Assembly (NCBI GenBank): GCA_017439405.1 | Contig: JAFSJF010000129.1 | Span: forward strand, 1 to 32,399 | DNA: 32,399 bases | From: Bacteroidales bacterium | GTDB taxonomy: Bacteria > Bacteroidota > Bacteroidia > Bacteroidales > F082 | Direction: 5' to 3' | Shown here: positions 388 to 722 of the stretch, piece by piece | Layout: every line of letters starts with the position of its first letter | Position numbering within the stretch: the first letter of the stretch is position 1 | Made by a program: the position numbers and the translations under genes | The notes under the pieces: generated by a model | The model's database searches: none | The model's input: the letters and a program-made list of their open reading frames with translations, nothing else | What the model was told of the DNA's origin: nothing

Positions 388-537
388 CTTGCCCAAACCA
401 AATTTTCCCTATTTTTGCCCACGCCAAGACGAGAGAAATCGCCTTCGGCCAGAGAAAGCGCATTCTTCGCTTTATTCCTCAATAGTGAATCTGGACAATT
501 CGCATATGGAGAGGGATTAAGGGGAAAAAGTTGCTTT

Positions 538-577
538 CATTGTTATGTTTGTTTTTGATTTACAAACATATACAGTG
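538..577 (+). promoter_or_regulatory. Leader hairpin, copy A
   Basis: CATTGT followed by TATGTTTGT (538-552) pairs with ACAAACATA (562-570), then a bulged T and ACAGTG (572-577). This gives about 15 base pairs with one G-U pair. The equivalent position of the other leader (20432-20476) also folds into a hairpin, with the outer ACAGTG arm kept and the inner arms changed on both sides. TATGTTTG at 544-551 also resembles a -7 box, so the palindrome could instead be an operator or a second promoter. Confidence 0.65.
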
Positions 578-607
578 GGGCAATTCCCTATCGTTATTTT
601 TCTTCTT

Positions 608-670
608 ATGGGAGTCCAGATCCAACTATTGAAAATAAGGATAAGTTTGAAAGGCTCCGCTTCTTTGTAG
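608..670 (+). other. Possible upstream ORF in leader A
   Basis: A 20-codon frame starting MGVQIQLL and ending KGSASL runs from ATG 608 to TAG 668-670, 52 nt before the start codon of the large gene. The matching segment of leader B starts MGVQTQQP and ends GGSASL, but lacks the stop and runs in frame into the surface gene. Most differences between the copies change the amino acid, so conservation looks nucleotide-level rather than peptide-level. Translation is unproven. Confidence 0.3.
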
Positions 671-722
671 TGAATTGAAAGCCTCTTTTGGGCCTTGAGG
701 CACAACAAAAACTCTAAACATT

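Follow-up and report, generated by a model that had tools for sequence, protein, structure and literature searches.

A structured 5′ leader before Bacteroidales surface-protein genes: member of an apparently undescribed family of putative cis-acting RNAs

The leader at positions 388-722 of the window, by which we mean the whole stretch of 32,399 nucleotides analysed here, probably represents an apparently undescribed family of large structured cis-acting RNAs and, judging from its sequence and relatives, would serve as a switch in gene control. Membership in a real RNA family is, on comparative grounds, practically certain, and an action in cis on the downstream gene would be very likely. RNA-based control in cis, as proposed in a sequence-only reading of this DNA, is well supported by further copies with covariation and by pairing tests in held-out relatives; that the leader regulates anything is what we infer.

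Two leaders of the window and their parts

A second leader lies on the opposite strand of the window (20628-20283, copy b) and aligns with the first (copy a) over its whole length, with 75% identity and an E-value of 7e-52. The sequence-only reading had seen in both a common promoter, conserved blocks and matching spacing up to the signal peptide, and alignment and sequence agree with it on each of these points; the two signal peptides are similar. The blocks it had described as three separate ones are indeed conserved but belong to a single structured RNA, extending from about 419 to 701 (20597 to 20306), of which the 3′ hairpin (H3, Table 1) is part in both leaders. Folded as single sequences, the two leaders have minimum free energy (MFE) z-scores of −7.4 and −6.0 against shuffles, and three further copies (−4.9, −5.4 and −5.7) are likewise far more stable than shuffles. 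By these scores, and by the eight copies in the genome and 52 in the genus described below, the likeness of the two leaders is far beyond chance.

Both leaders begin with a candidate promoter. All 53 full copies of the genus (one duplicate included) carry a TAnnTTTG box at the 5′ end, and in 35 of them a TTG is found 16-23 nt 5′ of this box, from which transcription of copy a is predicted to start near 424. A leader of 300 nt would be long for the phylum, since the 5′ UTRs of B. thetaiotaomicron have a median length of 32 nt, with 13.5% exceeding 100 nt (PMC7366714). A 5S rRNA gene (18-129) lies close to the end of the contig, some 260 nt upstream of the leader a promoter; the window also contains a tRNA gene (22692-22765).

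Transcribed from its own putative promoter, the leader would form the first ∼300 nt of the mRNA. Comparison of the copies shows a core made of a 5′ part (A5′-P3-C5′) joined to a 3′ part (C3′-PK3′-A3′) by helices A and C and by a loop-loop pairing (PK), with the hairpin P1, the central hairpin P4 and the helices B, D and T, which cross A and C, as further elements. H3 lies just 5′ of the start codon and pairs through its loop with the T3′ strand (helix K).

Table 1. Positions of the leaders, their structural elements and the genes behind them in the window
Feature	Position	Strand	Details
Promoter, copy a	388-417	+	TTG 389-391, 18 nt, TATTTTTG 410-417; Bacteroidota type, assigned from sequence
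P1 hairpin, copy a	423-449	+	GCCAAGACG...CGcCTTcGGC; both-side changes in 6/8 pairs
P2 hairpin, copy a	455-473	+	AAAGCG-CATTCTT-CGCTTT; 5′ strand doubles as E5′
B5′ and A5′, copy a	475-485	+	B5′ 475-480, A5′ 480-485; covariation and permutation tests
P3 hairpin, copy a	485-503	+	GTGAAT-CTGGACA-ATTCGC; loop 490-496 is PK5′
C5′ and B3′, copy a	503-516	+	C5′ 503-512, B3′ 511-516; permutation tests
P4 hairpin, copy a	533-581	+	basal 575-581 (GTGGGGC) doubles as T5′
C3′, small hairpin and A3′, copy a	600-631	+	C3′ 600-610; small hairpin GGG..TCC 610-623 with PK3′ (614-620) in its loop; A3′ 626-631; tests of A, PK, C
D3′ and T3′/K5′, copy a	633-666	+	D3′ 633-640, T3′/K5′ 653-660; 3′ end here without U-run
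H3 hairpin, copy a	681-701	+	GCCTC-TTTTGGGCCTT-GAGGC; loop 690-694 pairs with T3′ strand (K)
Gene a	723-6374	+	1884-aa BspA-type LRR surface protein, signal peptide, weak T9SS tail; Pfam LRR_5 5e-138
Promoter, copy b	20599-20628	−	TTG 20627-20625, 18 nt, TATTTTTG 20606-20599; assigned from sequence
Structured RNA, copy b	20341-20598	−	R1 258.9 bits, R2 143.9 bits
5′ parts, copy b	P1 20593-20568, P2 20562-20544, A5′ 20537-20532, P3 20532-20514, C5′ 20514-20505	−	
Later parts, copy b	P4 20481-20428, C3′ 20406-20397, PK3′ 20393-20387, A3′ 20381-20375, D3′ 20374-20367, T3′ 20354-20347	−	
H3 hairpin, copy b	20306-20324	−	loop GGGCC (20317-20313)
Gene b	15843-20282	−	1480-aa BspA-type LRR protein, T9SS sorting tail; LRR_5 7e-175, Por_Secre_tail 9e-9 (above Pfam cut-off), TIGR04183 2e-9

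Pairing, covariation and crossing helices

We aligned the 52 distinct full-length copies of the genus, a group called F082 here (alignment A4), after removing an identical copy (G020, C51) and leaving out 11 partial profile matches. The nested pairs P1, P2, A, PK and P4 are paired in 95.2% of the cells of this alignment, compared to 84.6% after shuffling (0 of 500 reach the observed value), and pairing falls to 30-47% when the partner is slid by one to three columns. Nineteen of the 34 pairs vary on both sides, and 204 cells have both sides changed, versus 64. Helix A shows both-side changes in all six of its pairs, its letters varying yet staying complementary (CAATAG/CTATTG in the first leader of the window, other letters in the second), and PK in five of six. 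P2, four of whose five pairs never vary across the 52 copies, is therefore without proof by covariation; its 21-mer has 12 matches in the window's own genome with at most one mismatch. A 31-bp block, considered as the functional unit, was dropped, as it coincides with the invariant P2 region, whose sequence distant members lack although they retain the structure. G-U pairs are kept, for example U-G in columns 139/188 of A4 in 44 of the 52 copies, and this fixes the strand of the RNA.

Two covariance models were built, R1 from A4 and R2 from 20 diverse members without P1. Both include A, PK, P2 and P4 (R1 also P1), so that tests of these helices lean towards the models. We compared the pairing energies of cognate strands with those of mixed strands in permutation tests on F082, on a distant set (37 of 47 matches, after 10 were dropped as duplicates or truncated; eight of the 37 are divergent copies of the same genus) and on a held-out set. 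The latter comprised 60 loci chosen from the best listed R2 matches of the order and phylum samples, not at random, of which seven were dropped from the permutation test as near-duplicates, leaving 53; two of the held-out loci come from the window's own genus, and one (L330) is the same place as L270, a truncated match contained in alignment A5 but in no model and no test. The permutation tests ignore relatedness, and only their control strands bear on kinship.

In F082, cognate strands were superior for A, PK, C, P4 and P1 (0/2000 permutations each; −12.1 versus −9.3 kcal/mol for P1, −10.5 versus −6.2 for C). P3 also gave 0/2000, with a small effect (−3.5 versus −3.1), and there was no support for P2 and an outer pairing (1124/2000). 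In the held-out set, A, PK, C, B, D, T, K and P4 each gave 0/2000 (−12.2 versus −5.4 for C); C, B, D, T, and K beyond the U-tract, are pairs absent from the models that nevertheless prefer their cognates here. P4 reached 0/2000 in each of three tests, F082 and held-out included, and T, D and K did so in the distant set as well. The values within F082 were 4/2000 for K, 29/2000 for D and, for T, 0/2000 in one test and 230/2000 on narrower windows (GTGGAGC/GCTCCGC); E and B together found no support there (628/2000). Helix E was weak in the held-out set (4/2000, beating 60%). The closing pairings Z and D2 gave mixed results: I5 × II3 reached 0/2000 in the distant set and 122/2000 in F082, Z alone 1808 and 1303 of 2000 and 0 in the held-out set, and D2 7/2000 in the held-out set. 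The control D3 × H3 gave 72/2000; the intended control D5 × T3 also gave 0/2000, because its window overlaps T5′.

Whole-RNA folding yielded mean z-scores of −6.9 for held-out copies (40 of 60 folded) and −6.1 for F082 copies (30 of 52). The 3′ half alone also beat its shuffles (−3.2 and −2.4 for the same samples), the 5′ half less so (−2.1 held-out, −1.9 F082). A purely rod-like reading, taken from the MFE folds, was dropped once B, D, T and K were found to covary across the rod.

Several helices, namely B, D, E and T, cross A and C, so that the RNA must be either one fold with multiple pseudoknots or a two-state switch. The median gaps between neighbouring strands are 0 nt (C5′-B3′), −1 nt (D5′-C3′), 3 nt (B5′-A5′) and 4 nt (A3′-D3′), with ranges up to 13, the small values being partly built in since B and D were searched in windows that extend 2 nt into A and C. 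In the 60 held-out copies, A5′ and PK5′ are 2 nt apart in 53, and PK3′ and A3′ 3 nt apart in 54. These gaps fit two four-way junctions (B/A/D/C and A/P3/C/small hairpin), with A and C side by side and the two inner loops paired; they fit equally a switch in which the A/PK/C core alternates with the hairpins E/B and T/D. In F082, the pairs of T must alternate with those of P4 and with those of K, because T5′ lies inside the paired base of P4 and the T3′ strand is common to T and K. Column 70 of A4 (G or A) changes together with column 241 in five of five cases and with its P3 partner in four of five (by eye), a pattern that, from few events, hints at alternation. Overall, the covariation is compatible with either coexistence or alternation of the helices crossing A and C and does not choose between them.

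A single static fold that does not switch, a permanent leader protecting the 5′ end of the mRNA or aiding the ribosome start, is in our view unlikely. It would agree with the gaps at C5′-B3′, D5′-C3′, A5′-PK5′ and PK3′-A3′, which are as in stacked junctions, with the loop-loop pairing and K, which tie the leader to the start codon, with the spacing to the ATG and with the scarcity of U-tracts in F082 (see below). The other two junction gaps are wider, though, the U-tract of most held-out copies points to termination, and the strands that T shares with P4 and K in F082 are at odds with permanence.

More tentatively, and with considerable doubt, the leader might be a class-wide, double-crossover-like RNA, acting as a two-state switch before unrelated accessory and surface genes and thus as a shared RNA-level control movable between genes. 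Here, the neighbouring hairpins E/B and T/D would exchange strands through the side-by-side helices A and C, the loop-loop pairing would be the lock, and the second loop pairing, K, would reach the start codon. To our knowledge, such double-crossover geometry is known mainly from designed RNA, and the fold, if single, would be a natural example of it.

Distribution and comparison with known RNAs

In the window's own genome, 41 places match the leader by BLAST (E up to 10). Eight are full-length copies by profile search, the two window leaders among them, and fragments, some with just the promoter, P1 and P2, precede other genes. Three partial copies lie less than 6 kb from each other and from a full copy (L031; G000, C118; 6241-6314, 9072-9131 and 11403-11453): two comprise promoter, P1 and P2, and one the P2 block without promoter. 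Behind two of these partial copies are genes that, judged merely by eye, look like those of a DUF1016 protein and a small antitoxin.

Used as a DNA query, copy b had matches in 25 of the 99 genus genomes, and the P2 21-mer, allowing one mismatch, occurred in 23 of 173 family genomes, every one in this genus. When a single genome of each species was scanned for exact occurrences of this 21-mer, 41 stretches emerged, with the titles Bacteroidetes, Bacteroidia, Bacteroidales or bacterium F082. Several of the titles name ruminants, and the RUG names among them we take to be rumen genomes.

R1 matched 32 of 173 family genomes, all in the genus, and 27 of 393 sampled order genomes, in 20 of 206 genera. 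The corresponding numbers for R2 were 97 (95 of them in the genus) and 113, in 67 genera. In a sample of 395 genomes from the phylum, R2 matched eight, of which six belong to the same class but not to the order; in the window's own genome it matched 21 places at E≤0.01, one of these a partial copy. Because E-values are rough (short calibration) and the many-genome searches used stricter filters, the counts may lack some weak members and include a few false ones among the weakest matches. The sequence-only reading had proposed a covariance-model search of Bacteroidales and would have counted a lack of further covarying copies against an RNA element; the search returned many copies with covariation. 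A covarying leader of ∼200-300 nt, with this spread over the order, up to 21 places in one genome and no match in Rfam 15, would be a large unassigned family of cis-RNAs in Bacteroidia, the class to which dominant bacteria of gut and rumen belong.

Several observations concern the surroundings of the copies. In L372, two family members stand head to tail 37 nt apart (982-1163 and 1201-1363, both −), and no ORF of at least 40 aa was found behind the upstream one. In nine of the 53 full F082 copies, the contig breaks off 229-518 nt past the leader (L032, L111, L112, L116, L117, L127, L144, L149, L152), in seven cases at a gene for a ∼110-aa GLFQRG protein, as if a repeat that blocks the assembler followed. 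To look into a possible origin from phages or plasmids, copy b was compared with both by blastn, with no match, and the exact P2 21-mer was absent from viral contigs; a core-pattern search found a family member at E≤0.01 in three of 36 viral stretches.

Scanned with Rfam 15 at gathering thresholds, the window and 38 fetched loci gave matches to 5S, tRNA and DUF805b only, all outside the copies (DUF805b, in L333, is 890 nt away). When single copies were scanned at relaxed thresholds, six and one weak matches were obtained, far below the cut-off, and a relaxed scan of 12 loci gave none at E≤0.5. The earlier statement that no element of this shape has been described thus holds as far as Rfam 15 and the literature searched go.

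Among known RNAs, riboswitches and attenuators share with the family an extended, structured 5′ leader, multiple copies within a genome that precede different genes, strands with two partners and, in most held-out members, a terminator-like hairpin with U-tract. They differ in that the new leader has no known ligand and no common pathway evident among its downstream genes, that its F082 copies mostly lack a U-tract and that it pairs additionally with a hairpin just before the start codon. A conserved structured domain in a predicted 5′ leader, as expected of a riboswitch, is present by its structure and its position between promoter box and ATG; for a ligand riboswitch, the lack of an evident shared downstream pathway would be unusual. 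In order- and class-wide members, a hairpin followed by a U-tract lies upstream of the gene, as expected of an attenuator; in F082 this arrangement is mostly lacking, with a U-tract in three of 30 copies examined.

Bacteroidales-1 RNA (RF01693), the closest candidate in taxon and size, was rejected as different in sequence; it likewise occurs in Bacteroidales, has an Rfam model of similar size (179 positions) and also has its own promoter and terminator. Its model matches none of the copies in the window's own genome, in which the search was made; the single match there (C19:17115-17298; G000, L287) has 34.4 bits, below the cut-off, and the sequence lacks the motifs of the new family. A short-type member of the new family is found 1.8 kb away, at C19:15155-15342. 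The 6S and 6S-Flavo RNAs (RF00013, RF01685) resemble the leader in a rod-like fold of ∼200 nt by free-energy prediction, whereas the new RNA has no Rfam match, many copies, a location before coding genes and crossing helices. The FopS sRNAs of Bacteroides form, like the new RNA, a paralogous family in Bacteroidota linked to outer-membrane proteins. As described, they are ∼65-70 nt long, with a single-stranded 5′ seed and one terminator hairpin, and act on other mRNAs; the new RNA, a ∼300-nt leader of the gene itself, differs from this description in length and fold (PMC11697453).

Downstream genes and possible modes of action

In addition to its leucine-rich repeats, gene a has a Por_Secre_tail match (1e-4, 22.9 bits) below the cut-off of 27. 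Gene b and a gene for a 1458-aa InlB-type-repeat protein (together 11467-20282, −) abut at 15840 and are probably one transcription unit on the copy b leader. The 52 F082 copies precede 24 genes for a ∼110-aa secreted type (no NCBIfam match in the one tested), 11 for TAT-type Cys-rich peptides, 15 for other surface, secreted or lipoproteins and two others. A control linked to T9SS cargo, suggested from the window alone, is thus not specific, T9SS cargo making up just part of what lies downstream; a T9SS sorting tail is absent, for instance, from the 1360-aa protein of L140.

Two of the 11 Cys-rich peptides were scanned against the CXXX-repeat radical-SAM target family and both match below the cut-off; one scanned peptide matches the CXXX repeat above the cut-off, and another is followed by the gene for a TIGR04115 maturase (617 bits). 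With TAT-signal CXXX-repeat peptides directly behind the leader (L031 12402-14233, L130, L135 and others) and the radical-SAM maturase beside one, these genes have the appearance of a ribosomal peptide system under the leader.

Outside the genus, the leader is found before lipoproteins, outer-membrane barrels, small HTH proteins and proteins without export signal. By a crude heuristic, which is also positive for six of 18 window ORFs and for 109 of 219 ORFs of the fetched loci (the genes in question included), the products look exported in 50 of 52 F082, 43 of 57 held-out and 26 of 39 other divergent copies with at least 40 aa. Pfam searches with 51 held-out downstream proteins revealed no common pathway: LRR_5 occurs in five, and 25 of the 40 families are listed in one protein each, such as OMP barrels, fimbrillin-like proteins, CsgG, TonB and C10 peptidase. 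As the genes behind it often encode surface proteins, secreted proteins or peptide natural products, the leader could represent a further level at which these bacteria set their surface, beside invertible promoters and sRNAs. Small HTH proteins that are alike by eye lie shortly behind four copies (L246, L277, L285, L387), and in L276 an Abi-like gene (by eye) follows.

Similar leaders precede genes of different classes, although the classes cluster on the leader tree: in F082, the gene class changes 15 times where three would do, compared to a mean of 23.7 after shuffling. The leaders of G061 C77 and G084 C43, for example, group tightly and stand before different genes. Such exchange could also be due to an element acting as DNA: a hairpin cassette of the MITE or attC kind, mobile or recombining, might exchange promoters between surface genes, and the tandem leaders of L372 and the partial copies before other genes would lend themselves to this. 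We consider this very improbable, given that G-U pairs are kept on one strand, that the structure sits between promoter and start codon, that compensatory changes occur in helices with conserved unpaired motifs and that the class labels do cluster on the tree.

The position of the start codon bears on how a cis-acting leader would work. The ATG follows the RNA end after 50-62 nt in 44 of 52 F082 copies. A search restricted to 20-140 nt behind the RNA end located an ORF (40 aa or longer) for 57 of the 60 held-out copies, with a median start at +56 and 41 of the 57 within 35-75. A U-tract, scored as six or more T within 8 nt at the best of 11 offsets (4.7% of single background windows qualify), is present in 57 of 60 held-out copies and in three of 30 F082 copies examined (of 52). 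The usual start-codon distance of ∼56 nt and the U-tract pattern make cis-regulation likely.

In most members, the T/D hairpin with its U-tract would end transcription early, and readthrough would accompany the A/PK/C core plus K. A switch with the T/D hairpin as its off state seems to us plausible, if somewhat doubtful on balance. The terminator-like end, the family's own promoter and its many paralogues, with the 21 matches in the window's own genome, would also suit a free small RNA, for which transcription would normally stop at the T/D hairpin, a ∼250-nt RNA would act in trans and the gene behind would be incidental. Yet H3, which lies beyond the U-tract, pairs with the RNA by covariation in both the distant and held-out sets, and the ATG is found at a similar distance in relatives across the class, which makes a free small RNA quite improbable.

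Returning to cis-control of the downstream gene, early termination is a reasonable conjecture for the family as a whole and a weak one for the leaders of the window, as the rarity of U-tracts renders termination doubtful in F082. For these leaders, the K pairing beside the start codon points to translation, and control in their group would more likely be exerted at translation start through the pairing of T3′ with H3. In the two window leaders, H3 ends 21 and 23 nt before the AUG.
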